A stretch of DNA of 38,079 bases, taken from assembly GCA_004195325.1 (NCBI GenBank), contig SDWO01000034.1, forward strand, positions 1 to 38,079, in the 5' to 3' direction. The position numbers and the translations under genes are program-made. The first letter of the stretch is position 1; every line of letters starts with the position of its first letter. The notes under the pieces are model-generated. The model was given only the letters and a program-made list of their open reading frames with translations, was not told where the DNA came from and did not search any database. This stretch comes from Candidatus Izemoplasma acidinucleici (GTDB lineage Bacteria; Bacillota_I; Bacilli_A; Izemoplasmatales; Izemoplasmataceae). This document shows positions 12,619-31,065 of the stretch, in pieces.

Positions 12619-12620
12619 CT

Positions 12621-12926
12621 ATGAATCCAGGTATGATAAAAAAACTTCAAAAAATGCAAAGAGAAATGATGAATGTTCAAAAAGAATTAGAGGCATCAAC
12701 ATTTTATGGTAGTGCCGGTGGAAAAATGGTTGAAGTGGAATTTTTAGGAAACAAAACAATGAAAAACATAACAATCAATCCAGAAGCTTTTGAAGATAAA
12801 GATGATATTGAAATGATTCAAGATACAATAACATTAGCAGTAAATGATTGTATCAAGAAAATAGAAGATGAAACACAAAGTGTTATGGGACAATTCACTG
12901 GTGGTGGAGTTCCAGGCTTATTCTAA
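12621..12926 (+). CDS. YbaB/EbfC-family nucleoid-associated protein
   Basis: A 101-residue protein two bases after the dnaX stop. N-terminal MKKLQKMQREMMNVQKELEA-type helix, a central strand region (KMVEVEFLGNKTMKNITINP) and a long C-terminal helix give the family fold. A Gly-rich end (FTGGGVPGLF) is typical. Family members bind DNA as dimers and sit between dnaX and recR in most Firmicutes, as here. The ribosome binding site AAAGGGGAATAACT lies in the end of dnaX, suggesting coupled translation. Confidence 0.95.
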   Translation: MNPGMIKKLQKMQREMMNVQKELEASTFYGSAGGKMVEVEFLGNKTMKNITINPEAFEDKDDIEMIQDTITLAVNDCIKKIEDETQSVMGQFTGGGVPGLF

Positions 12927-13992: not shown

Positions 13993-14014
13993 AACGGCCT
14001 ACCTAGGCCGTTTT
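13993..14014. terminator. Isolated GC-rich hairpin before the ABC operon
   Basis: AACGGCCT (13993-14000) pairs perfectly with AGGCCGTT (14005-14012) around ACCT, followed by TTTTAATTT. It lies upstream of the operon promoter at 14085, so it is either a third terminator or an attenuator or operator. The rest of 13931-14084 holds nothing else I can support. Confidence 0.6.
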
Positions 14015-14093: not shown

Positions 14094-14133
14094 AGAGTGT
14101 TAAAAAAAGTTAATTTTGACAGGAGAGATAAAT

Positions 14134-15219
14134 ATGGAGATTAGACTAGAGAATATCACAAAGATATTTCAAGCAAAAGATAAAACAGAGACAGTAGCTG
14201 TAAATTCTTTTGATTTAACAATTCCATCTGGAAAACTAGTAGGGTTATTAGGACCTTCTGGTTGTGGAAAATCAACAACCTTATATATGATTGCTGGGCT
14301 TTTAGAGCCTAACAATGGAAAAATATATTTTGGAGATGAAGATGTAACTGATATGTCACCAGAACATAGAGGAATAGGATTAGTGTTTCAAAATTATGCA
14401 CTATATCCACATATGACAGTTCGTCAAAACATTATGTTCCCATTAGAGAACATAAAGGTACCAAAAGATGAAGCTTTAGTAATGGCACAAGATATGGCTG
14501 ATTTAGTAGGTATCGGAGAATTAATGAATCGTAAACCACGTCAATTAAGTGGTGGACAACAACAACGTGTTGCTATTGCAAGAGCACTTGTTAAAAAACC
14601 AAGAGTATTATTATTAGATGAACCGTTATCAAATTTAGATGCTCGATTAAGATTACAAACTCGTGAAGAAATTAAGCGTATCCAACGTGAAACTGGGATT
14701 ACAACTATTTTCGTTACACATGATCAAGAAGAAGCTATGAGTATTAGTGACGAGATCGTTCTAATGGAATTAGGTTTAAAACATAAATTCTTAGGAACGC
14801 CACCAATTAACATCTTTAATGGTGAAATCAAAAAAGGAACATTAATGTTTAATGATTTCAAAATCGGTCCTCATGACGGTGCTGATGGAGAATGTGTTAT
14901 TGGTATAAGACCTGAAGGATTTACAGTTGTTAAAGAAAAAGGAAAAATAGAAATGGAAGTTGCGTATGTTGAGACAATTGGTAGAGATACTACATTAGTC
15001 TTCGAATACAAAGCTCCAGCAGATTTTGAAGAGTTAGAAGCAGAAGGAGTAAATACTAAAGAAGTTTCTGATGAGCCAGTAGAAATCAAAATGGTTACCA
15101 AAACATTCAAAGTTATTGTTGACGCATCATACAAATTTAAGCCAGGTGATGTGGTAAACTTAGATGTCAAGTCTAATAAATTATATGTATTTAATAAAGA
15201 TACTGGAGAATACATCTAG
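14134..15219 (+). CDS. CUT1-type ABC transporter ATPase (MsmX/UgpC-like)
   Basis: 361 residues from the ATG at 14134, after AGGAGAG; an in-frame TTG at 14116 precedes that site. ATPase of a binding-protein-dependent importer. Walker A GPSGCGKST at 40-48, signature LSGGQ at 138-142, Walker B VLLLDE at 158-163 and switch His196 are all intact. The C-terminal TOBE/OB domain is present (ECVIGIRPEGF onwards). The linker after the nucleotide-binding domain (about 211-222) is shorter than in MsmX/MalK relatives: roughly 18-20 residues normally lying before the FLGTPPIN-like motif are missing. The stop overlaps the next gene's GTG start. Substrate cannot be told from the ATPase. The operon context argues for products of nucleic acid breakdown, not proven. 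Confidence 0.9.
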   Translation: MEIRLENITKIFQAKDKTETVAVNSFDLTIPSGKLVGLLGPSGCGKSTTLYMIAGLLEPNNGKIYFGDEDVTDMSPEHRGIGLVFQNYALYPHMTVRQNIMFPLENIKVPKDEALVMAQDMADLVGIGELMNRKPRQLSGGQQQRVAIARALVKKPRVLLLDEPLSNLDARLRLQTREEIKRIQRETGITTIFVTHDQEEAMSISDEIVLMELGLKHKFLGTPPINIFNGEIKKGTLMFNDFKIGPHDGADGECVIGIRPEGFTVVKEKGKIEMEVAYVETIGRDTTLVFEYKAPADFEELEAEGVNTKEVSDEPVEIKMVTKTFKVIVDASYKFKPGDVVNLDVKSNKLYVFNKDTGEYI

Positions 15220-16139
15220 TGCTTGAAAGAGAGAGTAATTTAAAGGCCTGGCTATATCTTGCGCCAGCATTATTATTGTTGAGCGTATTCACATTTTACC
15301 CTTTATTCAACTCATTTTACCTAACATTCTTAGTAGGATATAATTACTTGAAACCAGATAAAATATTCGAAGCATATACTTTAGTTGGAAACTTCAAAGA
15401 AGTGCTATCAGATAAACTGTTTCATCAAGCACTTAAGAACACTGTTGTTATCGTATTCGTAAGTGTACCAATAAGTGTTATCGTTTCATTGCTAATTGCA
15501 GTTGCCTTAAATGGAATTAAGAAATTACAAGGAACATTCCAAACTATTTTCTTCTTACCATATGTAACAAATGCAATCGCAGTTGGGATGGCATTCGCGT
15601 TTATCTTTAATACTAATTACGGACTTGTAAACCAATTCTTAGGTTGGTTTGGAATGGATCCCGTTAAATTCGTTACTCTTGGAGCAACTTGGGGTACCTC
15701 AATGATTGCTTTACTTGTTTATACAATTTGGGGAGGACTTGCATTTAAAATAATGGTCTTCTTAGCAGGATTACAAAATATTGATAAGCAATACTATGAT
15801 GCAGCTAAAGTAGATGCAACACCAAGATCTAGAGTATTAAGAAGAATTACAATTCCTTTACTTTCTCCAATGATTGCATATATTACAATCACATCATTTA
15901 TTGGAGCATTTAAAGCTTACCGTACAGTAATCGGTATGTTTGGGGCTTCACTCGCTCCTCCAGGATTATTACCAAAAGATTCGTTAATCACAATAGTTGG
16001 TTACATTTATAGTTATATTTATGATACTGCACCTGGGGCTATTTCAATAGCAGCAGCAGCAGCAGTTATCTTGTTTGTTATCACTTTAGTCTTTACTTTT
16101 ATCCAAATGTGGGTTAGTAAAAAGAGAGTTCATTTCTAG
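15219..16139 (+). CDS. ABC transporter permease, MalF/UgpA type
   Basis: 306 residues with a GTG start that overlaps the preceding TAG (TAGTG); GGAGAA lies ten bases before it. Six membrane helices are expected, the first at about 9-29 (AWLYLAPALLLLSVFTFYPL). The cytoplasmic EAA loop, which docks on the ATPase, is seen as YYDAAKVDATPRSRVLRRIT followed by IPLLSP. It pairs with the next gene to form the membrane channel. Length is usual for this family (about 290-310). Confidence 0.92.
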   Translation: MLERESNLKAWLYLAPALLLLSVFTFYPLFNSFYLTFLVGYNYLKPDKIFEAYTLVGNFKEVLSDKLFHQALKNTVVIVFVSVPISVIVSLLIAVALNGIKKLQGTFQTIFFLPYVTNAIAVGMAFAFIFNTNYGLVNQFLGWFGMDPVKFVTLGATWGTSMIALLVYTIWGGLAFKIMVFLAGLQNIDKQYYDAAKVDATPRSRVLRRITIPLLSPMIAYITITSFIGAFKAYRTVIGMFGASLAPPGLLPKDSLITIVGYIYSYIYDTAPGAISIAAAAAVILFVITLVFTFIQMWVSKKRVHF

Positions 16140-16150
16140 GAGGCTGACAT

Positions 16151-17209
16151 ATGGAAGATAAAAATACATTCATAGACAAAGTAAAAGATTCTATGAGTAA
16201 GTTCACTGAGAAAGTGAAAGTAAGTGCAAAAGAGTTCTGGAGTAACCTAAAATCTTTATTTGTTAAAGGTGATGGGGAAAAAGAACAAAAAAGATTAAGT
16301 GAGAAACGAAGACGAGTGATAAGAAAAGCAGGAATATATACATTCCTACTTGTATTTGCAATTATAATAATTATACCTTTCTACTTCATGTTAATAACTT
16401 CATTAAAAGATGTAGATAAAATTTACGAAGAAATCCCACCGAGTTTATGGGTAAAATTCAAAGATATGATGTTTATCAACTATAAAGCATCATTAGAAAA
16501 CTTTGATTACTTTGTTTATATGAAAAACACAATCGTTGTTGCATTCTTTGCTACAATGGGTGTACTAGTTACAACAATATTAGCATCATTTGCCTTTGCA
16601 AGATTAAATTTCAAAGGTAGAGATTTATTATTCTTAGGATTCTTAATGACAATGATGATTCCAGGAGAAATGTTCGTAATAACAAATTACTTAACAGTTT
16701 CTGATTTAGGGTTATTAGGAAAAGAAGGCGGGTTATTCAGTGGGTTAGTCTTAGCTGATGGATCACAGTCGGCTCTACAAGCCAACATAGCCTTGATCAC
16801 ACCGTTTATGACAAGTGTGTTCTACATCTTCTTCTTAAGACAAGCATTCAAACAAATACCGGATGAGTTATATTTAGCAGCAAAAGTTGATGGAACAAGC
16901 GACTTTAAATATTTAAGAAGAATCATGGTACCAATTGCTGCACCTACAATTATTACAATTACGATATTAAATATGATGGGTACTTGGAGTGCATTTATTT
17001 GGCCAAACTTAGTGGCTGATGACGAAAAGTATCGACTAATAACAAATGGTCTGCGTAAAGCGTTTAGTGTAGTTGGTACTGGTGAAAGACCAGCATTCAA
17101 CTTGCAAATGGCAGCGGCTATGTTAGTAACACTACCATTATTAGTAGTATTCTTTTTACTTAAGAAATACATTATGCGTGGAGTTTCAAGAAGTGGAATC
17201 AAGGGTTAA
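16151..17209 (+). CDS. ABC transporter permease, MalG/UgpE type, with N-terminal extension
   Basis: 352 residues, against about 280 in most relatives. The extra part is a basic, amphipathic N-terminus of about 65 residues (MEDKNTFIDKVKDSMSKFTE onwards, with KRLSEKRRRVIRKAG just before the first helix). The core has six helices and the EAA loop LYLAAKVDGTSDFKYLRRIM, then VPIAAP. The extension should lie in the cytoplasm on the inner membrane face, where it could contact the ATPase or nucleic acid; that is a guess. Ribosome binding site AGGAGGCTGACAT. It forms the channel with the previous gene. Confidence 0.92.
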   Translation: MEDKNTFIDKVKDSMSKFTEKVKVSAKEFWSNLKSLFVKGDGEKEQKRLSEKRRRVIRKAGIYTFLLVFAIIIIIPFYFMLITSLKDVDKIYEEIPPSLWVKFKDMMFINYKASLENFDYFVYMKNTIVVAFFATMGVLVTTILASFAFARLNFKGRDLLFLGFLMTMMIPGEMFVITNYLTVSDLGLLGKEGGLFSGLVLADGSQSALQANIALITPFMTSVFYIFFLRQAFKQIPDELYLAAKVDGTSDFKYLRRIMVPIAAPTIITITILNMMGTWSAFIWPNLVADDEKYRLITNGLRKAFSVVGTGERPAFNLQMAAAMLVTLPLLVVFFLLKKYIMRGVSRSGIKG

Positions 17210-17246
17210 ATATAACCTTAATATATCTAAATAATAGGAGGAAACA

Positions 17247-18725
17247 ATGAAAAAGTTATTATCGTTAACATTACTATTAGTATCAGTTGTAGTTTTAGCT
17301 GGATGTGCTACAAAAACTGCTCCTGAAGAGGAAATAGATTGTGAATTATATCCAAACGCTATTCAATGTAAAGTAGCTGATCCTGACAACCCTCAACCTG
17401 GGATTGTTGAAGTATTAGACACATTACCTGCTGAAGATATCACAATAGATTTCTGGCACGTTTACGGGCAAGAAAAAGAAGCTTTATTATTAGATTATAT
17501 AACTGAATTTGAAGCGTTATATCCAAATATCACTGTAAATGCAACATCACAGGGTGGATATGATGATTTACGTAACAAAACAATCTTAGCAATGTCAGCT
17601 GGGACTACACCTACTATGTTAGTAGCGTACCCTGATCATATTGCTGGATACCTAGAAGGGGATGCAGTTATTCCTCTTGATGATTTCATTTATGATGACG
17701 TTTGGGGTATCGATATTACAGACTTCATAGATTCATATATTGAAGAAAACAGACAGTATCAAGGTGGATTTATGTATTCAGTACCTTATAGTAAATCAAC
17801 TGAAATGATGGTTTTCAACAAAACAATATTTGAAGCAAATGGAATAACTATTCCAATGGATGCACCATTAAGTTTTACTGATTTAGAAGGATTTATGTCT
17901 ACAATGGTTGGTACAGGTGCTGATCAATGTGAATACTTAATCAATTATGATTCAAGTGCAAACTTATTTATTAACAGCGTTCGTCAATGGGATGGTGGAT
18001 ATACAAATAGTGCTGGAGAAATCTTAGTTGATGACGAAAACACTGTTGCTATGTTAACTTATTTAAAATCAAAATTTGAAAACAAAATGATTGCATTACC
18101 TCTTGCATGGGATCAACAATATGGTTCTACAAACTTCAAAGCTGGAGATTCTTGTATGACTGTTGGTTCAACAGCGGGTATTAGTTATAATATTCCTGAT
18201 GTAGGAACATTTGAAATTGGTATTGCACCAGTTCCTCAATGGGATGAAGATCATATGTCAGCTGTACAACAAGGTCCAAATGTTGGAATTATGGAAAATA
18301 GTACACCTGCAGAACAATTAGCTGCATGGTTATTTATTAAATATATTACAGGTACAGAACAAACGGCTAAATGGTCTATGTTAACTGGTTATTTACCAGT
18401 ACGTATCAGTGGTTATGAATCAGTTGCTTATCAAGAATTCTTAAGTATTGCTGGAATGGATGCAGCTGGAACTTTAGATGATTATGTATTTAGTCAAGAT
18501 TTACAAGATTTATTAGGAAACCCAGCAGATTATGTTTATGAATCAATGACTGCAAATGCTGCAGCAGTCCAAGTAGATTACTATGAATATGATTTTGCAT
18601 TCTCTATGGTACACGCATCTTCTTCAGATGCTAGACTACAAGCAGGAATCATCACAGAAGCTGTTTATGGTGGAACTGTTACAGTTCAAGAAGCCCTACA
18701 GTCAATGTTGGACGATTTAAGCTAG
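17247..18725 (+). CDS. Extracellular solute-binding lipoprotein (CUT1 type)
   Basis: 492 residues with a lipoprotein signal peptide (MKKLLSLTLLLVSVVVLAGC, lipid-modified Cys20). The mature part is a type-1 binding-protein fold as in UgpB/MalE (ITIDFWHVYGQEKEALLLDY at the start of the domain, then STEMMVFNKTIFEANGI and WLFIKYITGTEQTAKWSM). It should be anchored outside the membrane and hand substrate to the two permeases. After AGGAGGAAACA, 37 bases from the permease, it has the strongest ribosome binding site of the operon, as expected for the most abundant component. Ligand unknown: the fold class is usually linked to sugars or glycerol phosphates, while the neighbours suggest nucleotides or oligonucleotides. 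Confidence 0.92.
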   Translation: MKKLLSLTLLLVSVVVLAGCATKTAPEEEIDCELYPNAIQCKVADPDNPQPGIVEVLDTLPAEDITIDFWHVYGQEKEALLLDYITEFEALYPNITVNATSQGGYDDLRNKTILAMSAGTTPTMLVAYPDHIAGYLEGDAVIPLDDFIYDDVWGIDITDFIDSYIEENRQYQGGFMYSVPYSKSTEMMVFNKTIFEANGITIPMDAPLSFTDLEGFMSTMVGTGADQCEYLINYDSSANLFINSVRQWDGGYTNSAGEILVDDENTVAMLTYLKSKFENKMIALPLAWDQQYGSTNFKAGDSCMTVGSTAGISYNIPDVGTFEIGIAPVPQWDEDHMSAVQQGPNVGIMENSTPAEQLAAWLFIKYITGTEQTAKWSMLTGYLPVRISGYESVAYQEFLSIAGMDAAGTLDDYVFSQDLQDLLGNPADYVYESMTANAAAVQVDYYEYDFAFSMVHASSSDARLQAGIITEAVYGGTVTVQEALQSMLDDLS

Positions 18726-18748: not shown

Positions 18749-20194
18749 ATGATTAAAAAGTTTTCATTACTATTAATGATAATAACTGTTTTAACTCTTA
18801 CCGGTTGTAAAACCGGTGAGACTAAAACAGACATAGATGTTGTATATGAAGTGAAAAACGAGTTTACATTCGAAAACTTTGATATCACAGAAAATATAAT
18901 AATTCCATCAACTTCTAATGAAGGTGTTACAGTGGTTTGGGGTTCAAGTTCTCCTCAATATTTAACTGTTGACGGGACAGTAACTAGACCAACGTTTCAA
19001 GATGGAGATAAAGTTGTAAGTTTGTCAGCTACGATTACTTTGAACGACGCAGTTGCGATTGCATCATTTACGTTTACGGTTCTAAAGGAAGAACGAACTT
19101 GTATAACATGCTATACAGATGATTTAACAATAGACTTTAACTACGAGAGCACAAGTTTCATCGCAGATGGTACTGGTATTGTAGATTTAGTAAGTTGTGT
19201 TGATGGTGACACAGCGATATTCACAGAAGGAAATGGAACATTCAGTGTAAGATTTCTAGGAATCAATACTCCGGAATCTACATATAAGTTTGAACCATGG
19301 GGTAAACCAGCAAGTATATTTACTTGTGACAAATTAACAGAAGCAACAACAATAGTACTTGAATATGATGCTTCAACTACAAGAACTGATGGAAATGAGA
19401 GATACCTTGCATGGATATGGTACGACGGAAGATTGCTTAACTTAGAATTAGTCGAAGAATCATACTCTGGAAGTAAAGGTGTTGGAGGACTTAAATATGA
19501 AAGTTTATTCTACGATGCAGAATTTGCTGCGCAGGATTACGACTTACGTATTTGGGGAGAAGATGATCCTACATTTGATTATAGTTTAGATGGTATTCAA
19601 TTAACTATTGAGGAATTAGTAACAAATCAGGAAGATTATATTGGTTTAAAGGTCGTAATTAGAGGTGTCATTACCCGAACTATAGGCGGACATCCATATA
19701 TACAATCCGGAGACTATGGTATCTACTTATACAAAGGTTTTCAGTCTACTAGCGGACTTGCAGAAGGAAATGAAGTTTTAATTTCTGGATTAAACCTTAC
19801 ATATCATCCTGATAAAGAAACAGGGGCATTACAGTTAACCGGATTCACAAGACAGAATTACTCTGTTGAGAGTACAGGAAATGTAATTGTTCCAAACATC
19901 ATAACTATCGATGAATTATCTAGAGATTCTATTGGTAGTTTAGTCCAAATGGACGATCTTACTGTCGTAAGTGTTTATGAGAACCCTGACGACGACGCTT
20001 TCACTGTAACTGCAGAAGACGGAGAAGGAAACACAGTAGTAATTAGAAGAGATGATTCTATTTCTGCTGATGTAACTGGAGATTTGTTTACCGTAGGTGC
20101 AGAATTTAGTATTATTGCACCTCTAGGAAGATACATGGGTGAGTATCAATTACTTATCGCACACTTAGAGGATGTAACATTCATTACAGAATAG
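18749..20194 (+). CDS. Surface lipoprotein with Ig-like, staphylococcal nuclease (SNase) and OB-like domains
   Basis: 481 residues with signal MIKKFSLLLMIITVLTLTGC (Cys20 lipidated). Ig-like domain about 30-112 (VTVVWGSSS..DGTVTRP); SNase domain about 143-272; OB-like nucleic-acid-binding region about 285-480. Compared with S. aureus nuclease: Asp152 and Asp154 (DGDT) match Asp19/Asp21, Arg168 matches Arg35, Glu176 matches catalytic Glu43, and Arg218 matches Arg87. The calcium ligand Asp40 is Asn173 (GINTPE). Substrate should be DNA and RNA outside the cell. The SNase-plus-OB order recalls Bacillus YhcR. Its ribosome binding site (GTGTGAT) is weak. Position directly after the importer genes is shared with mycoplasma nucleases of this family. 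Confidence 0.87.
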   Translation: MIKKFSLLLMIITVLTLTGCKTGETKTDIDVVYEVKNEFTFENFDITENIIIPSTSNEGVTVVWGSSSPQYLTVDGTVTRPTFQDGDKVVSLSATITLNDAVAIASFTFTVLKEERTCITCYTDDLTIDFNYESTSFIADGTGIVDLVSCVDGDTAIFTEGNGTFSVRFLGINTPESTYKFEPWGKPASIFTCDKLTEATTIVLEYDASTTRTDGNERYLAWIWYDGRLLNLELVEESYSGSKGVGGLKYESLFYDAEFAAQDYDLRIWGEDDPTFDYSLDGIQLTIEELVTNQEDYIGLKVVIRGVITRTIGGHPYIQSGDYGIYLYKGFQSTSGLAEGNEVLISGLNLTYHPDKETGALQLTGFTRQNYSVESTGNVIVPNIITIDELSRDSIGSLVQMDDLTVVSVYENPDDDAFTVTAEDGEGNTVVIRRDDSISADVTGDLFTVGAEFSIIAPLGRYMGEYQLLIAHLEDVTFITE

Positions 20195-20224: not shown

Positions 20225-20698
20225 ATGTTGAAAAAAATATTAACACTAACACTTATTTTTGTTGGAATCTTTACTTTAACCGCTTGCGGTGGAGATGATG
20301 AACCTACGCTATCTGATTTAGATAAGCTTACAGAAGCATTTGACGGTTTAGCTTTACCAACGGCAATTGATGGACAATTAACTTTATTAGATACTGGATT
20401 ACATGGGGTTACCATTACATGGGAATCAAATAAACCCGCTGTAATTTCTAACACTGGTCTGATCACGAACCCATCATTTGGGGAATTAGATCAAACTGTT
20501 ACATTAACTGCTACATTAGTTTTGGGTGAAAACTCATTTGCAAAAGACTTTGAGGTAGTTGTATTAGCTACTACAGTTGAAACTGATTTAGCTAAAGCAA
20601 ACAGATTAATCGTTTCATTAATCTTTGCTAATTTGACTGTTACAGATACTGTATCTTTAGTATCAGAACATCAAAGTTTCCCTGTAACATGGACTTAA
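20225..20698 (+). CDS. Ig-like surface lipoprotein, N-terminal fragment (frameshifted)
   Basis: 157 residues after AGGAGGA. Lipoprotein signal with LTAC (Cys21), then one complete atypical Ig-like domain (about 33-118; VTITWESNKP, then QTVTLTATLVLG) and the first third of a second. It ends at VTWT followed by TAA. In the next frame the DNA reads straight on as DLTATYVVGTETITKEF, the end of the same type of domain. Compared with domain 1, about 27 codons are missing between the TW and LTAT motifs and only two bases remain, so a deletion of about 79 bases caused the frameshift. The gene therefore should be read together with 20689-23838. Confidence 0.82.
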   Translation: MLKKILTLTLIFVGIFTLTACGGDDEPTLSDLDKLTEAFDGLALPTAIDGQLTLLDTGLHGVTITWESNKPAVISNTGLITNPSFGELDQTVTLTATLVLGENSFAKDFEVVVLATTVETDLAKANRLIVSLIFANLTVTDTVSLVSEHQSFPVTWT

Positions 20699-23600
20699 CA
20701 GCTACTTATGTTGTTGGAACTGAAACAATTACTAAAGAATTTACATTTACTGTAACTGCATTAGAAACTGCAGCAGGATTTACAAGTGTATTAGATCTTC
20801 ATACTAATGCTGTATATACTGAAACTGTTGTGTTCACAGGTGTTGTTACTGCAATGATGGAAAAAGGATTCTTTATTAGTGATGGAACGCATAACCTTAG
20901 TGTTTACAAAAACGAGGTTGTAACTGGAATCGCTGTTGGAGATGAAGTTACAGTTAAAGGGGCATACTTAAACTATAATTCTTTATACCAAATAAGTAAT
21001 ATTGAATCTATAGTAGTAAACTCTTCTGGAAATGCTGATCCATTAAAAGCTGCTGCTGTTGTTAAAACTGTAGCTGAATTATTAGCTTTAGATTCATCAT
21101 TAAAAGAGATGCATGGTGCATTCTATGTTGTTACTGGTACAATTGCAATACTTGGTGATTTCGGTAATGTATTCTTAGTTGATGGTGATGATGAAATATT
21201 AGTATCTTACTATTCTCTTCCAACTTCTATTACTGCACTTGAAGCAGAAGTAGGAAAAGAAGTAACTATTACTGTATTCTATTACACTGAACACGATACA
21301 AATGGACATATCGTTGCATTTGATGGTTTAGCGGATGATATTACAACTAACGCATTATCAGATGTTGATGCTATCGCAGCTGATGTTGCTGGTTTAGACG
21401 CAATGGTTGTTAACGTAAGCGTTGGAACAGTTGTATTACCAACTGAAGGTGCTAACGGTACTACATTCACAAACTGGGCTTCTGATACAGTAGCTGTGCT
21501 AGATAATGATGGTACATTTGTTGCATTAGGTGTTGCTACGACTACTGTTACATTAACTGCTACTGCTACAAAAGGTTCAGAAACTGAAACTGTTTCAGTT
21601 GAAGTTGTTGTTCCTGTATTAAGTACAGTTGAAGAAGTTCTTAATATGGATGACGACGCTTACTTCTCAGTAAGTGGTGTTGTATACGAAATTACATATT
21701 ACGGATTCTACATCGAAAATAATGGTGACTTTGTATTCTTATATAACAAAGAATATGCGGGACCAATCGTTGTTGGAGATGAAATACAATTACTTGGACA
21801 AAGAAGTACATATAATGGCTTAATTCAAGTTAATGCAAAATCAGATATAGAAATTTTATCAAACTTAAATGATGTACCGACAGCTGTAGCAGGAACTGTA
21901 GAAGCAGCTAAAAATGATATGTATCAAAGAGGTACTTATTATACAGTTACAGGTACATATTCAATTGAAGCTGGTGCTGATGGTTATGATGACTTTATCA
22001 TTATTGGAGCAACTGGTGAAAAATTAGAATTGTATTATAGATCAAATGTAGCTGAATTAATTACATTTGATGGACAATTAATTACAATCGATATATTAAC
22101 TTATCACAATGGTTTAGCTTTATACATGGGTGAAGCAGCAGATGTTGCTGTAGGTACACCTTTTACAGATTTAAATAATGCTCAAGCTGTAGCTGATTTA
22201 TTAATGATTAACCCAATGGTAGAAATGAATTTAGTATTGCCTGTTGAGAATACTTTAACTGTTGCTACAATTACTTGGGCTTCTGATAATGAAGCTGTAA
22301 TTGATACTGATGGTGCTGTTACAAGAGTATCTGGAAGCGATACTACTGTTACATTAACAGCTACTATTGTTGTTGGTGGAGCTACTGTTACTAAAGACTT
22401 CGTTCTTACAGTAAAAGACGCTGATGATATGGTTGTTTTAACTGTTTCTGAAGCTTTATTACTTGCGGATGGAGAAAATGTATTAGTTAAAGGTGTAATC
22501 ACTGGTAAGTATAAGAATGAAAGAATTATCCAAGACGAAACTGGAGCTGCTATTTGGGTAGACAGTGATGTTTTTGGAGAAATTGGAGATGAAATTCTTG
22601 TACGTGGTGATTTAGGATTATATCCATATAACGATAATAACAATAGACAAATAGATAACGCTACTTTACTTGATACTTTATCAACAGGTAACGCTCTAGT
22701 TGTTTCAGCTGTAACTGATGTTGCTGCGATATTTGCAGAAAAAGACTTAATGCATCGTTATACAGCTACATTAACTCTTACACTTGTTGATGGATTCGGA
22801 TATGCTCTATTTAATACAATACCAGTAGACTATACTGATCCTGTAGAAACTTTAGATGAGCAAGGATTCAAATTTAAAATAAGTACTTTTGCTCCATATT
22901 TTGAAAATATATATACTGTTGGAGATATGATTGAACTTACATTTACTATACAATCATATAGTTATGACAATATAGCTATGGTTAATGTTGTATTACCTGC
23001 TTTAACTGATGCTCAAGCATTAGGTGAAGCTATGGCTGCTGTTGATGTTGCTACTCCTGTTACTGCAGACGTTGAATTACCTACAGAAATGTACGGTGTT
23101 GCAATTGCATGGGTTTCAGATAACGCTGCTATCACTGATATGGGTGTTGTTACTATACCTGCAATCGGTGTTGCTGATGCAACAGTTACTTTAACCGCTA
23201 CTTATACTATTGGTGTTGAAACTGATACAGAAGTATTTATTGTTACTGTACCTGCAGAATTACCACCTGTTGCTGCTGCTCCTTTATTCTTTAGTGAGTA
23301 TGCTGAAGCTGCTGGTGGATCTTGTAAATATGTAGAAATTTATAACCCTACTTTAGAAACTGTTAACTTAGATGGATATACTATTGTAAGACCTAATGAA
23401 GGAGATTTATTTAATACTCTTTATGAGGTTGACACTTTAACAGGAATGTTATTACCTGGAGAAGTAATTGTTGTTGGAGGTAGTGCATGTGGTAATAGTG
23501 GTGATGATAGTTTTGCTACTTGGACATTTGGAACAATGGACTTCGTAAGTTCTGATGCTGCTGCTTATTTCAATGGTGATGATGCTTTAGGATTATTCTT

Positions 23601-23838
23601 TGGGGATACTTTACTTGACACTATTGCACAAGAAGGAGAAATAGCTCCGGATACTGGTGCAAGCTGGTTTGTTGGTAATGGAGATTTACTGGACGGATAT
23701 ACTATGGAAAACTGTACAATGATTAGAATTCCATCTGTTACATCTGGAGAAACTGATTGGGAAGTTGGACAACTTCAGTGGATCGTTCTTGCTGATGATA
23801 GAGATTATTCTAATGTTGGAGTTCACACAGTAGATTAA
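20689..23838 (+). CDS. Giant Ig/OB-repeat surface protein with lamin-tail domain, C-terminal part
   Basis: 1049 residues in the frame following the break at about 20690; the ATG at 20689 is not a real start, as it lies inside a domain and lacks a ribosome binding site. Repeating modules are seen: an OB/DUF5689-like pair (FTGVVTAMMEKGFFISDG, then AVGDEVTVKGAYLNYNSLYQ), an Ig-like domain (WASDTVAVLDNDG..VTLTATAT), then the same order again up to three times. The protein ends in a lamin-tail domain (about 850-1045; FFSEYAEAAGGSCKYVEIYN, GYTI, LLPGEVIVV). OB and lamin-tail domains occur with extracellular nucleases such as ExeM. No nuclease active site is seen, so it is probably a DNA-binding or scaffold protein. 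Third surface gene of the operon; a terminator follows. Confidence 0.82.
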   Translation: MDLTATYVVGTETITKEFTFTVTALETAAGFTSVLDLHTNAVYTETVVFTGVVTAMMEKGFFISDGTHNLSVYKNEVVTGIAVGDEVTVKGAYLNYNSLYQISNIESIVVNSSGNADPLKAAAVVKTVAELLALDSSLKEMHGAFYVVTGTIAILGDFGNVFLVDGDDEILVSYYSLPTSITALEAEVGKEVTITVFYYTEHDTNGHIVAFDGLADDITTNALSDVDAIAADVAGLDAMVVNVSVGTVVLPTEGANGTTFTNWASDTVAVLDNDGTFVALGVATTTVTLTATATKGSETETVSVEVVVPVLSTVEEVLNMDDDAYFSVSGVVYEITYYGFYIENNGDFVFLYNKEYAGPIVVGDEIQLLGQRSTYNGLIQVNAKSDIEILSNLNDVPTAVAGTVEAAKNDMYQRGTYYTVTGTYSIEAGADGYDDFIIIGATGEKLELYYRSNVAELITFDGQLITIDILTYHNGLALYMGEAADVAVGTPFTDLNNAQAVADLLMINPMVEMNLVLPVENTLTVATITWASDNEAVIDTDGAVTRVSGSDTTVTLTATIVVGGATVTKDFVLTVKDADDMVVLTVSEALLLADGENVLVKGVITGKYKNERIIQDETGAAIWVDSDVFGEIGDEILVRGDLGLYPYNDNNNRQIDNATLLDTLSTGNALVVSAVTDVAAIFAEKDLMHRYTATLTLTLVDGFGYALFNTIPVDYTDPVETLDEQGFKFKISTFAPYFENIYTVGDMIELTFTIQSYSYDNIAMVNVVLPALTDAQALGEAMAAVDVATPVTADVELPTEMYGVAIAWVSDNAAITDMGVVTIPAIGVADATVTLTATYTIGVETDTEVFIVTVPAELPPVAAAPLFFSEYAEAAGGSCKYVEIYNPTLETVNLDGYTIVRPNEGDLFNTLYEVDTLTGMLLPGEVIVVGGSACGNSGDDSFATWTFGTMDFVSSDAAAYFNGDDALGLFFGDTLLDTIAQEGEIAPDTGASWFVGNGDLLDGYTMENCTMIRIPSVTSGETDWEVGQLQWIVLADDRDYSNVGVHTVD

Positions 23839-23860
23839 TTATTACACATTATTAAATAAA

Positions 23861-23890
23861 AACATCACTTGTAAAAGTGGTGTTTTTTTT
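23861..23890 (+). terminator. Terminator of the ABC/nuclease operon
   Basis: AACATCACTT (23861-23870) pairs with AAGTGGTGTT (23875-23884) around GTAA, with a single G-T pair, followed by T residues to 23890. Confidence 0.9.
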
Positions 23891-23938
23891 ATGCTTTTAA
23901 AGTATAATATAATGTTGTTAATACAAAGAGGTGTTTAT

Positions 23939-25078
23939 ATGAAAAAAGTACTATTACTTGCATTAACTTTAGTATTGGTTTTAACAGGTTGTGCAAAAGA
24001 TGAACCTGAAACAGGCGCATATTATATTCTTCCTGATCTTAATGGGTTTACGTTAAATGAAATAGAAAACCTATTTGAACCAAAAGACAGAGAGTATAAA
24101 ATTGTTTATGAAACTGTAGAAGATGAAAATTTAGAACTTCAATTTATCATGTATATAGATTCAAATACTGGAGATATGGTAAATAGTTCAGATGAAATAA
24201 CGATTAAAGTGTATCCTGAGTTTACAGGAGTAAGAACCTTTGGAAGACTACCGGACTTAACTGGATTAAGTGAAGATGAAGTAATACTTTATTTTGAAGA
24301 GTATAATATCAGTCTCTCATTTAGTGAGACACAAAGCATACACGAAGATGAAGTACCAGGTACTTTTTATGGATATAGTAGTAACAAAAGCATTGGAGAT
24401 AGATTCTACTTTAACAACACTCTAGGAATCATTATGTACAAAGAAGCTGTTAATCTAACCGAATTCTTTTTCCCAGTTGAATTGGAATATGATGGTCCTC
24501 TACTTGATGAATCATTTGCAGAGGTAGATGCTGTTGATCCAAGGGGTGGATACTTTGAAGTTACCTTAAAGTATTGTACAGATGGGGATACTGCTGTATT
24601 TCATTATCCACAATATATATATGATTTAATTGAAAGTGGTGCAAAATCAGTTCGCTTTCTAAATATGGACACAGAAGAAACATATTATGGTGGGGAAGAA
24701 GAGTGGGGGAAGCCAGCAAGCGTATTAACTTGTGATTTACTAACAAGTGCACAAAGCATTATCCTTCAAACCGATCCAGGAGATGCTCTAACAGGAACTT
24801 ATGGTAGACTACTAGGTTGGGTCTGGGTTCAACTTCCAGGAGAAGAAGAATACTTCTTATTAAACTATATGATTGTAAAGCAAGGACTAGCTCGTGTTAA
24901 GTACGAATTTGGTGCTGGAGAGACAATAAGTTATGGTAATTATACCTATAATGAATGGATGCATATCGCTGAAGATTATGCCGTTAATAATGATCTAGGA
25001 CAATGGGGAGATTTACTTGATTACTATTGGGATTATCAAACCGATTCTCCAGATTATAATAAGTGGAATAACGAGTAA
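23939..25078 (+). CDS. SNase-like lipoprotein with PASTA-like repeats
   Basis: 379 residues from the ATG at 23939, after AGAGGTG; an in-frame ATG at 23891 adds residues before the signal peptide and overlaps the terminator. Lipobox LTGC with Cys18. Two PASTA-like repeats (about 28-95 and 102-168; LPDLNGFTLNEIENLF and LPDLTGLSEDEVILYFEEY) precede an SNase domain (about 205-360). Key residues are all kept: Asp215/Asp217 (DGDT), Arg239, Asp244 (calcium ligand, Asp40 in S. aureus), Glu247 (Glu43) and Arg290 (Arg87). The proline of the usual DTPE motif is Glu246. It is a separate unit with TATAAT at 23903-23908, between two terminators. Of the two nucleases this is the one with a complete active site. 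Confidence 0.86.
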   Translation: MKKVLLLALTLVLVLTGCAKDEPETGAYYILPDLNGFTLNEIENLFEPKDREYKIVYETVEDENLELQFIMYIDSNTGDMVNSSDEITIKVYPEFTGVRTFGRLPDLTGLSEDEVILYFEEYNISLSFSETQSIHEDEVPGTFYGYSSNKSIGDRFYFNNTLGIIMYKEAVNLTEFFFPVELEYDGPLLDESFAEVDAVDPRGGYFEVTLKYCTDGDTAVFHYPQYIYDLIESGAKSVRFLNMDTEETYYGGEEEWGKPASVLTCDLLTSAQSIILQTDPGDALTGTYGRLLGWVWVQLPGEEEYFLLNYMIVKQGLARVKYEFGAGETISYGNYTYNEWMHIAEDYAVNNDLGQWGDLLDYYWDYQTDSPDYNKWNNE

Positions 25079-25176: not shown

Positions 25177-26115
25177 ATGTATAATAAAATCAAGGAATTA
25201 ATTGAAGAATATAGTACTATAATCATTCATCGACATTTCAATCCAGATGGAGATGCTTACGGAACTCAAATGGGACTAAAGAGCATTATTAAACTGAATT
25301 ATCCTAATAAATCAGTTTATGCTGTAGGAGATGTAAATCAATTTTCCTTTGTTGGTGAAGTTGATCATATTGATGACAGTGTTTATAAAAATGCTTTGGT
25401 TATCATTGTTGATGTGAGTGTTTCACACTTGATTAGTGATGATAGATATAAATTGGCTGATCATGTTATTGTTATTGATCATCATTTAAACGCAAGCAAT
25501 GTAGCGGATACAGAATTAAATGATCCAACTCATATTGCATGTGCACAAATAATTGCTGATTTCGCAATAGAAATGAATTTAGAAGTAAATAAAGAAGCTG
25601 CGAGAGCACTATTCACAGGAATCGCAACGGACAGTGGTAGATTTAAATATCCAGCAACTTCAGCTAAAACTTTTGAAATTGCTGCATTCTTAATAGGTAA
25701 AGGGATAGATATCCAAGAAATATACGAGAGGTTATATACAGAAACATTTAACTTCAAGAAATTACGCGGGTACTTTATCAACAATTTCCAACTAACAAAG
25801 AAAAAAGTAGCATATATGAAAAACGACTTAACTGTTAAAGAACATTTCAACGTATCGACATTCATTGTCTCACGAGGAATGGTAAATCAGATGGCAGATT
25901 TAGAAGACGTCGAAATTTGGGCTAATTTCACGTTAAACGAAGAACAACAAGTATTTGTAGAACTAAGAAGTAAAAGACACTCTATCGTCCATGTAGCACG
26001 CAAATATGGCGGAGGAGGACATGCTTTGGCATGCGGTTGTACATTGAATAGTCTAGAAGAGAGTGATTTAGTGTTAAATGACCTAGATCAACTATTAGAG
26101 GAAGTGAACCAATGA
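25177..26115 (+). CDS. DHH/DHHA1 phosphoesterase, NrnA-like (first of a pair)
   Basis: 312 residues. NrnA proteins degrade very short RNA or DNA oligonucleotides to mononucleotides and can remove phosphate from pAp, with manganese. Motifs: HRHFNPDGDAYGT near residue 20 (the usual HxxPDGD), DVSVSHLI (motif II), IDHH with Asp101-His102-His103 (DHH), and TDSGRFKY (motif IV). The DHHA1 domain ends in YGGGGHALACGC (the GGGH substrate-binding motif). All metal ligands appear present. Ribosome binding site CGGAGGCTGAAATT. Its TGA stop overlaps the next ATG (ATGA), the only TGA stop in the window. It likely completes degradation of oligonucleotides imported from the surface nucleases. Confidence 0.93.
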   Translation: MYNKIKELIEEYSTIIIHRHFNPDGDAYGTQMGLKSIIKLNYPNKSVYAVGDVNQFSFVGEVDHIDDSVYKNALVIIVDVSVSHLISDDRYKLADHVIVIDHHLNASNVADTELNDPTHIACAQIIADFAIEMNLEVNKEAARALFTGIATDSGRFKYPATSAKTFEIAAFLIGKGIDIQEIYERLYTETFNFKKLRGYFINNFQLTKKKVAYMKNDLTVKEHFNVSTFIVSRGMVNQMADLEDVEIWANFTLNEEQQVFVELRSKRHSIVHVARKYGGGGHALACGCTLNSLEESDLVLNDLDQLLEEVNQ

Positions 26116-27074
26116 ATTTAGAAAAATTAACAGAGATAAAGAATACAATTGAAGAATTTGACACGATTGTCATATTTCCACATGGTAGACCTGATGGAGA
26201 CTGTATCGGAACTTCATACGGATTAAAGAACATTATTGAACAAACATATCCAAATAAAAAAGTATATGTATCGGGAGAATCAAGCTTGTTTACAAGTTAT
26301 ATAGGATCTCCTGAATTAGTTGACGAAGATATATTAAGTGGTGCCTTAGCAATAAGTGTAGATACTGCTAATAGTAGTCGTATCGCTGATCAAAGATTTA
26401 AAGAGTGTAAAAAACTAATCAAAATTGATCATCATATTCCACAAGAAGGATTTGGAGATATCGATTATGTCGATACATCTCGTCCAGCTGCAGCATTAAT
26501 CATCTTAGATTTATATATGGCTTTCATAGGTGAATTAAAGATGAACGTTGATGGAGCTAAAGCTTTATTCTTCGGTATTCTTACAGATACAGGAAGATTC
26601 AAGTATAGTGGAGTAAACGGAGATACATTTAGAAATGTAGCTGCGTTATATGACTTAGGACTAGAAACAAATGAAATCTATGTCTATTTAGATCAAAGAA
26701 GTGAAGAACAAACAAGATTTAGAGGATTCTTACTTCAAAACTATGTAAAAACAGAAAACGGAGTTGTCTACTTCAAAGTGTTACCTGAATATCTAGAAAG
26801 ATTCAACGTATCACTAGATGAAGCAACTGCTTTAGTAAATGATTTAGGAGCATTCGCAGATTGTCCTGTATGGATTTTATTTGCTGAATACGAAGAACAA
26901 ATCGTAAGAGCTAGAATGAGATCACGTGGTATCGCTATAAACGAACTTGCAAACAGGTTTGATGGTGGTGGACACAAGAACGCATGTGGTGCTAATTTAG
27001 GTACTTGGGATCGTGCTGAAGAACTTATTGATGCATGTGATCAATTAGTAAAAGAATATAAAGAGTCGATTTAA
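26112..27074 (+). CDS. DHH/DHHA1 phosphoesterase, NrnA-like (second of a pair)
   Basis: 320 residues, a diverged tandem copy of the previous gene. FPHGRPDGDCIGTSYGLKNI near residue 22, SVDTANSSR, IDHH with Asp106-His107-His108, TDTGRFKYSG, and C-terminal FDGGGHKNACGA are kept, so both copies should be active. Four-base ATGA overlap means translational coupling. The ribosome binding site AGAGGAAGTGAACC lies within the end of the first gene. Two NrnA proteins could differ in oligonucleotide length or in preference for DNA, RNA or pAp. The stop codon sits in the loop of its own terminator. Confidence 0.93.
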   Translation: MNLEKLTEIKNTIEEFDTIVIFPHGRPDGDCIGTSYGLKNIIEQTYPNKKVYVSGESSLFTSYIGSPELVDEDILSGALAISVDTANSSRIADQRFKECKKLIKIDHHIPQEGFGDIDYVDTSRPAAALIILDLYMAFIGELKMNVDGAKALFFGILTDTGRFKYSGVNGDTFRNVAALYDLGLETNEIYVYLDQRSEEQTRFRGFLLQNYVKTENGVVYFKVLPEYLERFNVSLDEATALVNDLGAFADCPVWILFAEYEEQIVRARMRSRGIAINELANRFDGGGHKNACGANLGTWDRAEELIDACDQLVKEYKESI

Positions 27075-27208: not shown

Positions 27209-28924
27209 ATGATCTTAGTAGTTACTGAATTAATCAATATGTCAGAAATCGAATGGACAGAAACAATATTCAAATTACTTGGTGGGCTTGGAATTTTCTT
27301 ATATGGGATAAATATGATGGGAGATTCATTAAAGGCATTAGCAGGTAATAAGATTAAGGTTATAATTGAGAAAACAACTTCTAGACCAGTCTTTGGTGTA
27401 CTAATAGGGATATTAGTAACAGGACTAATCCAATCATCAAGTGGTACAACTGCGTTAACAGTTGGGCTTGTACGTGCTGGACTAATGACCTTACCACAAG
27501 CAGTAGGTATTATATTAGGAGCTAACATAGGAACGACTGTTACATCTGTTTTAATCGGATTAAAGATTAAAGATTATGCATTACCAATTATCGCAGCAGG
27601 TAGTTTCTTAATCTTCTTCTTCCAAGGTAAGAAATACAAAAACCTAGGTGGAGTATTATTAGGATTTGGGATGTTATTCTTTGGATTAGATGTAATGGGT
27701 GGAAAACTAAAAGAATTGGCTCATACATTTGAATTCGTTGACATGATTGAAAGAGTAGCTGACGCACCAATTATCGGGTTAGCACTAGGTGCTGTATCAA
27801 CGGCGTTAATTCAATCAAGTAGTGCAACAATTGGGATATTACAAACCATTTATAGTGAAGCAGGAGGCGCATTTCCTTTAATAAGTGCCGTAGCAATACT
27901 ATTTGGAAATAACATAGGAACTACAGTTACTGCAGTACTAGCATCTATAGGTGGTAGTGTTGCCGCAAGAAGAACCGCGTTAGCACATGTATTATTTAAT
28001 CTTGTTGGATCATTAATGTTCTTCATGTTTATCGGACCATATACAGCATTAATATCAAACTTGGCTAGATGGACAGGGTTAGCACAGTCTGATGCACTTG
28101 TAATTAGTTATGCACATATGGGATTCAATATTATTAATACATTAATCATGTTCTGGTTTATTAAACAACTTGTATGGATCGTTACTTATCTAATAAAAGG
28201 TGATGATGGACTTGTCGAAGTTGATATAGCTGGTTTACATGAAGAGTTAATTAAAGAATCACCTATTCTAGCTTTAGAGGCAGCTAAGCTAGTTGTTCAA
28301 AACATGGGTGAAGTAACTAGACAAATGTTAGAAACAACAATCAATTATTCATATAAAAATGATAAAAAATTATTCGATAACGGAATGCAGTTGGAAGAAG
28401 TACTTGATACGATTGATAAGAAAGCACATGATTACCTAGTACTTATTGCTCAAGGTGGATTAGATGGTAAAGCATCACATTCTCAAGCTGAGTATGTTGA
28501 TACAATCAGAGACTTTGAACGTATTGGTGATCACTGTACAAATATATTGCAATTCTTCGAATTACGTTACGATGACAAAGTTAAATTAAGTGAAGATGCA
28601 TTTAAAGAACTAACTAAATTATACGATGTTGTTAGAACAACGATGGACTTAACATTAAAGGCTTTTATGTATCAAGACAAAGAAATAGCCAAAAAAGTTA
28701 CTGAATATGAAGACGTTATCGATAAATTAGTAATTAAGAACAGAAAACGTCATATTAGAAGAATCAACTCAAATGAATCAACAGAAACACAAGATCAGTT
28801 ATATATCGATATATTAACAAATATAGAGCGTATTGGTGATCACTGTGAAAACATCGTAATTAATGTCATACAAGACCAATACTATAATGAGGAAATGGAT
28901 TACGAAGCATTACTTGATCAGTAG
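27209..28924 (+). CDS. Na+/phosphate cotransporter with PhoU-like tail (NptA/YjbB type)
   Basis: 571 residues. The Na/Pi cotransporter II core (about 15-330) has the two inverted repeats with the signature QSSS (GLIQSSSGTTALTVG, then ALIQSSSATIGILQT) and the paired GANIGTTVT and GNNIGTTVT motifs. The C-terminal cytoplasmic part (about 345-565) is PhoU-like, with two FERIGDHC/IERIGDHC motifs that can bind metal. It should import phosphate with sodium. Ribosome binding site CGGAGGTATAAAT. The Pho-box-like repeat upstream and the PhoB-like gene downstream, 75 bases away, indicate control by phosphate supply. Confidence 0.93.
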   Translation: MILVVTELINMSEIEWTETIFKLLGGLGIFLYGINMMGDSLKALAGNKIKVIIEKTTSRPVFGVLIGILVTGLIQSSSGTTALTVGLVRAGLMTLPQAVGIILGANIGTTVTSVLIGLKIKDYALPIIAAGSFLIFFFQGKKYKNLGGVLLGFGMLFFGLDVMGGKLKELAHTFEFVDMIERVADAPIIGLALGAVSTALIQSSSATIGILQTIYSEAGGAFPLISAVAILFGNNIGTTVTAVLASIGGSVAARRTALAHVLFNLVGSLMFFMFIGPYTALISNLARWTGLAQSDALVISYAHMGFNIINTLIMFWFIKQLVWIVTYLIKGDDGLVEVDIAGLHEELIKESPILALEAAKLVVQNMGEVTRQMLETTINYSYKNDKKLFDNGMQLEEVLDTIDKKAHDYLVLIAQGGLDGKASHSQAEYVDTIRDFERIGDHCTNILQFFELRYDDKVKLSEDAFKELTKLYDVVRTTMDLTLKAFMYQDKEIAKKVTEYEDVIDKLVIKNRKRHIRRINSNESTETQDQLYIDILTNIERIGDHCENIVINVIQDQYYNEEMDYEALLDQ

Positions 28925-28999
28925 GGAATCAACTTAGTTTCTATAACAAAGTAACTTAATTAAAACAATTATGTTATTATAGGATTGGAGGCTGATAAT

Positions 29000-29665
29000 A
29001 TGGCAAAAATCTTAATTATTGAAGATGAGAAATCAATCCAGAGAATAATTGAATATGACCTAAAACAACTTGATTATGATGTAGATTCAGCGTTTGATGG
29101 ACTAGAAGGATATAACAAAGCATCTTCAACAGTATATGATGTCATCCTATTAGACCTAATGTTACCAAGCATGAATGGGATGGAAATCTGTAAAAAATTA
29201 AGAAGTGAAGATAATAATGCATATATTATAATGCTTACAGCTGTCGATGATGAATACAATGTTATCAAAGGCTTTGATGTTGGAGCTGATGATTATGTCA
29301 CTAAACCATTCAGTCCAAGAGAACTTCTAGCTAGAATTAAAGCTGGACTAAGAAGAAAAGGGTTATCTAACAATCAAGATATACTGTCATATAATGACTT
29401 AAAAATAGTCCAATCAAGTTATGAAGTATTTAGAGGAAATGAAAAATTAGACTTAACTTTAAAGGAATTTGAACTGTTTGTTTTTCTTGTTATAAACAGA
29501 GGAAAAGCACTATCTAGAGATCAGCTATTAACTAATCTTTGGGGATTTGGTTATGATGGTGATAGTAGAGTGGTAGATGTTCATGTATTTAAGTTGCGTG
29601 AAAAGCTAGATCCTAAGAATGATTATATCAAAACAGTACGGGGTATCGGATACAAATTAATCTAG
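29000..29665 (+). CDS. PhoB/OmpR-family response regulator
   Basis: 221 residues from the ATG at 29000, after TTGGAGGCTGATAAT; the in-frame TTG at 28985 is part of the ribosome binding site region. Receiver domain about 1-118 with phosphoacceptor Asp52 (LLDLMLPSMNG), Thr80 and Lys102. OmpR-type winged-helix DNA-binding domain about 128-221 (FELFVFLVINRGKALSRDQL, then DVHVFKLREKL and IKTVRGIGYKLI). Beside a phosphate transporter and with a PhoR-like kinase downstream, it is most probably the phosphate regulator, but OmpR-family specificity cannot be read from sequence alone. No phoA or pst genes are in the window. Confidence 0.88.
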   Translation: MAKILIIEDEKSIQRIIEYDLKQLDYDVDSAFDGLEGYNKASSTVYDVILLDLMLPSMNGMEICKKLRSEDNNAYIIMLTAVDDEYNVIKGFDVGADDYVTKPFSPRELLARIKAGLRRKGLSNNQDILSYNDLKIVQSSYEVFRGNEKLDLTLKEFELFVFLVINRGKALSRDQLLTNLWGFGYDGDSRVVDVHVFKLREKLDPKNDYIKTVRGIGYKLI

Positions 29666-29671
29666 TATACA

Positions 29672-29698
29672 AAAGACAGATAGTTTATCTGTCTTTTT
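29672..29698 (+). terminator. Terminator between regulator and kinase genes
   Basis: AAAGACAGATA (29672-29682) pairs perfectly with TATCTGTCTTT (29686-29696) around GTT, then TT. It separates the kinase gene from the regulator gene. Confidence 0.9.
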
Positions 29699-29788
29699 AA
29701 TGAGATTCACAATATATAAACACATATATTTGATTTTTAATGTGTGATATACTATTTAAGTATTAGTTTATTTTATAAAAAGTAGAAT

Positions 29789-29817
29789 TTGATGAAAAAC
29801 AATAGGTACTTTATAAT
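29789..29817 (+). promoter_or_regulatory. Promoter of the histidine kinase gene
   Basis: TTGATG (29789-29794), 17 bases, TATAAT (29812-29817). Start near 29824 gives a leader of about 12 bases holding only the ribosome binding site. A further extended -10, TGATATACT, lies at 29745-29753. Confidence 0.6.
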
Positions 29818-29835
29818 ATAACTTGAGGTGAGAAT

Positions 29836-31065
29836 ATGAACATTAAGAGAGACATAGCAAACATATCAATTTTGTATTTAATCGCTTTGCTATATATTAT
29901 TATTGGTAAAGATACAGTTGGAATCGTTGTTATAACTGGGATCCTTTTTGTCATTACAATTGTTACATATATCTCAATTCAACATAAACTTGATGAAGAA
30001 AAAGAAACATCACTTGAAGTTGTTCTACAAAGACTAGATAAAACTCAAAAAGAAAATGAAGAAACATATAAACAATTCTTGTCATTATCTAAAACATTAG
30101 GTAGTGGAGTCTTCATGGTTGCTGAATCAGGGGAAATTACATTCTCAAATAAAGATGTTAAAAACTATTTTGGAATTAACTTCGATAAAAAGGATTATAA
30201 CGAAATAGTTGAAATCAAACCACTTCACAAATTTGTTAACAAGGCTTATCTAACTGAAAAAGCACAAAGGGAGCAAATCACTTATAATGATCGATATTAT
30301 GATTTAATTAGCACACCTATTTTTGAACAGGATATCTTTAACGGAACACTCATCTTAGTTCACGATATAACTTTGATCAGAAATGCAGAGAAATTCCAAA
30401 AACGATTCACCGCAGATGTCTCTCATGAATTAAGAACCCCACTTTCAGCCATTAAGGGATTTAGTGAGATTCTTAATAGAGAAGAAGAAGTGAATAAAAA
30501 AGATAGAAATGAGTTTAACAAACTTATTCAAAAAGAAGCAGAGAGAATGGAAATCATCTTAAGTGATTTAATGGTTATTAGCAGACTAGATAGAATTGAT
30601 TATGAACTAGAATTACTTCCGGTGAATATAAAAGATATAATTGAAGAATCAGTTATGGTTCTACAAACTAAAATAACAAACAAAAATCTTTCGTTATCTA
30701 TCAATATTGAATCTTGTGATTTAGAAGTTAATAAAGTTAAAATGACACAAGTTATTCTAAATCTGTTAAAAAACGCAATAAATTACACAGATGAAGGGAC
30801 TATTGATGTATCTGGAAGAATAGAAAAAAACGAATATGTAATTGACATAAAGGATTCAGGAATTGGTATTCCAAAAGACAAATTGGAAGTCATTTTCAAA
30901 CGATTCTATCGTATTGATAAAGCGCGTAGTAGAGATACAGGCGGTAGTGGCCTTGGATTATCAATTAGTAAAAATGTTGTCCTTAAACACGGTGGAGATA
31001 TTTCAGTTCAAAGCGAGTTAAACAAGGGCTCAGTATTCACTATAAAACTACCTATTATAAAATAA
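29836..31065 (+). CDS. PhoR-like sensor histidine kinase
   Basis: 409 residues after GAGGTGAG. Two membrane helices with almost no outer loop (about 10-26 and 30-51) are followed by a coiled linker, a PAS-like domain (about 85-180; GSGVFMVAESGEITFSNKDV), and a dimerisation domain with the phosphorylated His197 (DVSHELRTPLSAIKG). The ATPase domain follows, with N box (LLKNAINYTDEG), G1 (DSGIGIPKDKL) and G2 (GGSGLGLSI). Lack of a large outer domain fits PhoR kinases that sense through transporter/PhoU contacts, here perhaps the PhoU tail of the neighbouring transporter. Pairing with the regulator at 29000 is inferred from position; a terminator and 170 bases separate them. Confidence 0.88.
   Translation: MNIKRDIANISILYLIALLYIIIGKDTVGIVVITGILFVITIVTYISIQHKLDEEKETSLEVVLQRLDKTQKENEETYKQFLSLSKTLGSGVFMVAESGEITFSNKDVKNYFGINFDKKDYNEIVEIKPLHKFVNKAYLTEKAQREQITYNDRYYDLISTPIFEQDIFNGTLILVHDITLIRNAEKFQKRFTADVSHELRTPLSAIKGFSEILNREEEVNKKDRNEFNKLIQKEAERMEIILSDLMVISRLDRIDYELELLPVNIKDIIEESVMVLQTKITNKNLSLSINIESCDLEVNKVKMTQVILNLLKNAINYTDEGTIDVSGRIEKNEYVIDIKDSGIGIPKDKLEVIFKRFYRIDKARSRDTGGSGLGLSISKNVVLKHGGDISVQSELNKGSVFTIKLPIIK

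Follow-up and report, generated by a model that had tools for sequence, protein, structure and literature searches.

A large surface lipoprotein of Ig-like, OB and lamin-tail domains, with no recognisable nuclease domain, in a DNA-use gene cluster of Candidatus Izemoplasma acidinucleici

Described DNA-use loci and the cluster of Ca. Izemoplasma acidinucleici

Extracellular DNA in the seabed is a large source of phosphorus, nitrogen and carbon. The wall-less bacteria of the group treated here count among the organisms specialised in using it. The host of the DNA analysed here (the window, 38,079 nucleotides of contig SDWO01000034.1) is one such wall-less, DNA-eating bacterium of sediments. For another class of polymers, polysaccharide utilisation loci encode non-catalytic surface glycan-binding proteins beside hydrolases and an importer.

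From the "DNA-degradation loci" of Ca. Izemoplasmatales, Wasmund et al. 2021 (PMC8289736) described a protein of 1,049 aa that has lamin-tail and nucleic-acid-binding domains and, by their account, a nuclease domain. Cultured relatives degrade DNA and induce genes of the cluster on DNA or RNA (PMC8397711, PMC10470597); a gene annotated EddB was induced about 20-fold (PMC8397711) and a hypothetical protein about 27-fold (PMC10470597). In the Mycoplasma hominis group (MAG_5030-5070), the excerpts of PMC3585158 place an SNase lipoprotein, a P80-type solute-binding lipoprotein and an ABC transporter in one cluster, as here, so the pairing of importer and nuclease is already known. The same excerpts mention no large protein of OB, Ig and lamin-tail domains (LTD), which is the extra element of the locus described here. 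DNA degradation by the extracellular endonucleases ExeM and Xds depends on their OB region (PMC6085458, PMC6746945).

Similar to the loci of PMC8289736, the present locus brings together nucleases, an ABC transporter, phosphohydrolases (here of the NrnA type) and phosphate transport. The neighbours of the large gene are the following.

14116-15219, + strand: MalK-type ATPase of an ABC importer
15219-16139 and 16151-17209, + strand: permeases of the ABC importer
17247-18725, + strand: substrate-binding lipoprotein (SBP), completing the importer span 14116-18725
18749-20194, + strand: SNase lipoprotein 1, with Ig, SNase (PF00565, 3e-10) and OB pair (19595-20191)
23858-23887, + strand: intrinsic-terminator-like hairpin, 13 pairs and then a T-rich tail, directly 3' of the large gene
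23891-25078, + strand: SNase lipoprotein 2, with a weak PASTA-like part and SNase (PF00565, 5.8e-7)
25177-27074, + strand: two DHH/DHHA1 phosphoesterases (NrnA-like)

The order is thus ABC ATPase, two permeases, SBP, SNase 1, large protein, SNase 2, two NrnA-like hydrolases, Na/Pi cotransporter, response regulator and histidine kinase. The position of the large gene between two nuclease genes, as proposed from the sequence alone, was confirmed. Between the ATPase and the large gene the intergenic gaps are -1 to 37 bases, and terminator-like hairpins lie on both sides of this stretch (13993-14012 and 23858-23887); the large gene is therefore probably the last of the importer operon. The Na/Pi cotransporter, followed by the response regulator and histidine kinase (27209-31065), lies directly 3' of the DNA-use cluster, which suggests a phosphate link. 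As minor features, SNase 1 (18749-20194) has N in the motif INTPE where most relatives have D, and the SBP (17247-18725) matches the P68 surface lipoprotein family and UgpB weakly.

Clusters with the large gene were found in Izemoplasmatales, Haloplasmataceae and other families of Bacilli (29 loci examined, on contigs that include Ca. Izimaplasma HR2, ZiA1, UBA5603 and Haloplasmataceae). Wherever the contig shows an upstream gene in these 29 loci, it is SNase 1 or the SBP, and NrnA genes lie near the large gene in loci of Izemoplasmatales and of other Bacilli families where the contig shows them. A look for the gene next to SNase genes in related genomes had been proposed with the sequence-only reading; SNase 1 is absent directly before it in L050, L066, L067, L071 and L072. 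In its own genome the large protein is present in a single copy, and a search found it nowhere else there.

Reading frames and architecture of the large protein

The sequence-only reading had treated 20225-23838 as one gene product. The interval consists instead of two open reading frames in different frames, ORF A ending at 20698 and ORF B opening at 20689. Their features are listed here.

20225-20698, + strand, frame 2: ORF A, 157 aa, N-terminal part of the large lipoprotein
20225-20287, + strand: signal peptide of ORF A with lipobox LTAC
20336-20569, + strand: Ig-like domain 1 (aBig_2; Pfam PF20578, E=3.9e-21)
20600-20757, + strand: Ig-like domain 2, interrupted by a frame break and a deficit of about 79 bases at 20686-20698
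20689-23838, + strand, frame 1: ORF B, 1049 aa, rest of the large lipoprotein
20758-21372, + strand: OB pair 1 (AF2 pLDDT 94.7; Foldseek to HIN-200/CST/POT1/RPA; NF033681 positions 2-145 of 546)
21355-21606, + strand: Ig-like domain 3 (aBig_2)
21601-22188, + strand: OB pair 2 (hhalign to OB pair 1, prob 100; AF2)
22171-22416, + strand: Ig-like domain 4 (aBig_2)
22417-23004, + strand: OB pair 3 (hhalign to OB pairs 1 and 2, prob 99)
23002-23256, + strand: Ig-like domain 5 (aBig_2; best Pfam stretch aa 774-856)
23266-23835, + strand: lamin-tail domain and C-terminus (PF00932, E=1.1e-8; Foldseek to the lamin Ig fold)

ORF A is preceded by a strong Shine-Dalgarno sequence, AGAAGGAGG. The ATG of ORF B has no Shine-Dalgarno or other ribosome-binding site and falls inside an Ig domain, which ruled out ORF B as an independent gene. 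In intact copies of Ig domain 2 the stretch from the conserved W to LTAT is 32 residues; in the present gene TGG is followed after only 2 bases by TTAACAGCTACT. The 79 bases missing there also put the rest of the gene into another frame. Where the N-terminus of a relative is complete, the gene is one intact lipoprotein ORF of about 880-1630 aa with the lipobox in frame, whereas in the present assembly the lipobox is out of frame with ORF B; the copy here is therefore mis-assembled or broken. Ca. Izimaplasma HR2, for instance, carries an intact homologue (L037, 6184-9852). A programmed frameshift at 20689 was ruled out, since Ig domain 2 is short by about 26 residues and there is no slippery run. 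No decay is seen, since ORF B remains open and is 25-43% identical to its relatives in alignments. Because the downstream coding is conserved, the break most likely arose in the assembly or by mutation only very recently. The same draft genome holds a second frame break, in a secreted 5'-nucleotidase-like protein with a C-terminal LTD split over two frames (L074, contig C127, 1693-3267 and 3183-3857, - strand); it too affects a surface gene of nucleic-acid catabolism, and it makes an assembly error plausible for the large gene. In another genome, a homologue of the large protein is also in two frames, apparently through a small indel near the third Ig domain (L069, about 11781-12656, - strand).

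The length of ORF B equals that of the 1,049-aa protein of PMC8289736. This suggests, without proving it, that the published call is ORF B, and the two are probably the same protein; the published product would then lack the N-terminal part with the lipobox, which is cut off by the frame break. The large protein is thus probably not new and was previously described with a nuclease domain (PMC8289736), so that the claim of the sequence-only reading to know of no described protein of such role and architecture in this group does not hold.

The modules are arranged as SP-Ig-(Ig)-[OB-OB-Ig]x3-LTD. The repeated Ig-like domains noticed in the sequence match aBig_2 with E=4e-21 in ORF A and E=7.5e-40, over three stretches, in ORF B (Pfam). 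The lamin-tail end was likewise recovered with PF00932 (1.1e-8), at 35.8 bits in ORF B against a gathering score of 34.3 and at 41.6 bits (E=2.1e-10) in the search of its own genome; the LTD was matched in 7 of 17 aligned members. The AF2 model of ORF B has a mean pLDDT of 75; most OB regions reach 80-90, and the C-terminus is poorly modelled. OB pair 1 was modelled with five-stranded OB barrels (AF2 pLDDT 94.7, and Foldseek). In Foldseek the OB pair matched HIN-200, CST, POT1, RPA, SSB and S1 OB proteins, and nearly all of its best 50 matches are nucleic-acid-binding OB proteins. Whole HIN domains gave TM-scores of about 0.4; the HIN-200 folds therefore match, and the mutual arrangement of the OBs may differ. 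Sequence matches to solved OB proteins were below threshold (E of 0.02 and worse). The full ORF B model matched lamin Ig folds and, through the Ig repeats, S-layer and adhesion proteins. The pairs had been called OB/DUF5689-like in the sequence-only reading: the OB part was upheld by AF2, Foldseek and an S1_2 match in Pfam (25.1 bits, cut-off 21.8), but DUF5689 (PF18942) gave nothing above the cut-off in the large protein. It is present in the SNase protein, to whose OB pair those of the large protein are homologous by profile.

OB homology to nucleases and the absence of a recognisable nuclease domain

The three OB pairs are homologous to one another (hhalign prob 99-100). They are also homologous to the OB pair at the C-terminus of the neighbouring SNase lipoprotein (prob 97-98; 96.8 in a second comparison). 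With the catalytic domain of the SNase, the OB profiles gave no alignment in hhalign. A second link leads to the ExeM/NucH family (NCBIfam NF033681), with E=7e-9 and 35 bits, where the curated cut-off is 300; the match covers profile positions 2-145 of 546, the non-catalytic first quarter only. The LTD of a homologue matches the LTD region of ExeM with E=3e-22. The large protein thus carries an OB region and LTD homologous to those of the extracellular endonucleases ExeM, Xds and NucH (NF033681, NF033680), in agreement with the earlier remark that OB and lamin-tail domains are commonly joined to extracellular nucleases. Unlike those enzymes, it is without the catalytic EEP domain, has the OB pairs three times, spaced by aBig_2 Ig domains, and bears a predicted N-terminal lipid anchor.

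Profile searches found no nuclease domain in the large protein or in 23 scanned homologues, as expected from the lack of any catalytic motif noted in the letters alone. The C-terminal EEP catalytic domain (PF03372) had no match in the large protein or its homologues, the SNase domain (PF00565) none in ORF A or ORF B, and searches of Pfam, NCBIfam and PDB sequences revealed no hidden catalytic domain. Ig, OB or LTD modules account for every segment of the protein. Structure prediction and profile searching, which the sequence-only reading had proposed as a check, returned OB, Ig and LTD modules and no hidden enzyme domain. This differs from the 1,049-aa protein as described in PMC8289736, and the absence of a nuclease domain would correct that description. 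The published "nuclease" label probably goes back to the ExeM/YhcR-type OB region.

Possible role in holding or presenting nucleic acid

The separate, non-catalytic surface lipoprotein that the sequence-only reading placed among nuclease and importer genes is encoded in a cluster conserved across Bacilli families. From its modules and setting we infer contact with nucleic acid and a presenting role, and we see an even chance that, without being an enzyme itself, it binds nucleic acid at the cell surface or presents it to the nucleases and importer of the cluster. Anchored by its N-terminal lipid, the protein would be an accessory of DNA utilisation. Its Ig-spaced OB pairs and its lamin-tail end would bind nucleic acid or oligonucleotide products, or present them, close to the ABC importer and the lipid-anchored SNase; capture of DNA would be a plausible role. 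Such a role would be akin to that of the non-catalytic surface glycan-binding proteins of polysaccharide loci, an analogy only, as the folds are unrelated and the substrate is different. A wider reading is more tentative and may well not hold: the protein would be a conserved, dedicated non-catalytic receptor or scaffold for extracellular nucleic acid, arisen from an amplified accessory module of the neighbouring nuclease, and would belong to a system that does for nucleic acids what polysaccharide utilisation loci do for glycans, in Izemoplasmatales, Haloplasmataceae and other Bacilli.

The charge of the protein bears on these readings. ORF B has a pI of 4.05 and a net charge of -119, and all OB pairs are strongly acidic (modules 1 and 2 at -17 to -36 net per ~200 aa). 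Across 26 sequences, not one column of OB modules 1 and 2 is conserved as Lys/Arg, and several columns are mostly D/E or aromatic; one Arg column is kept in module 3, and the SNase OB pair has several basic columns. The acidity and the absent conserved basic residues weaken the case for nucleic-acid binding without excluding it, and sugars and proteins are further known ligands of OB folds. The acidity was not accepted as a proof that DNA is not bound: the SBP, both SNases and other surface lipoproteins carry about equal charge per residue, so it does not discriminate by itself. As a charge control, a full ExeM/NucH nuclease of the same phylum was sought, with none found in 195 genomes.

The acidic, non-basic OB modules 1 and 2 would suit a structural stalk or assembly platform, in which the Ig/OB/LTD chain would hold or dock the SNase lipoproteins and SBP through protein contacts and would not itself bind nucleic acid. 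Such contacts are often made by OB and Ig folds, and the variable length of relatives (879 to 1631 aa) is as expected of a spacer. We hold this to be rather unlikely, as the OB pairs are specifically common to the SNase enzyme and ExeM/NucH, aromatics are conserved in them and the stand-alone gene persists without an adjacent SNase 1 (L066, L067, L071, L072). A general surface-layer or adhesin protein of the wall-less cell, in the cluster but not specific for nucleic acid, is improbable: the S-layer and adhesion matches of the full model through its Ig repeats and another Ig-rich lipoprotein of the genome (L053) agree with it, and the conserved linkage to importer, nuclease and NrnA genes in several families and the absence of further copies in the genome speak against it. 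Least probable is a nuclease of an unrecognised type. The nuclease domain stated by Wasmund et al. 2021 (PMC8289736) and the ExeM/NucH match would call for it, but that match is confined to the OB part (2-145 of 546), the known modules cover every segment, and the large protein and 23 homologues gave no nuclease domain.

Should the largest surface protein of this DNA-use cluster indeed be no enzyme, a different reading of the cluster is called for, and the protein becomes a candidate, open to direct testing, for the means by which such cells hold DNA or present it. The main gains are that the nuclease claim is corrected, that the gene has a frame break, that its OB module recurs in the SNase and that the cluster is widespread.

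Some related loci carry further genes beside the large one. An extra gene lies between the large gene and SNase 2 in L036 (14532-15782) and L038 (9708-10958); in L036 it encodes a lipoprotein with a metallo-beta-lactamase fold and an Ig domain, and in L038 it has the same size. In the UBA5603-type loci L049, L051 and L052, a second relative of about 616-632 aa follows directly after the large gene; without a nuclease domain, the 616-aa relative of L049 combines an LTD with aBig_2.
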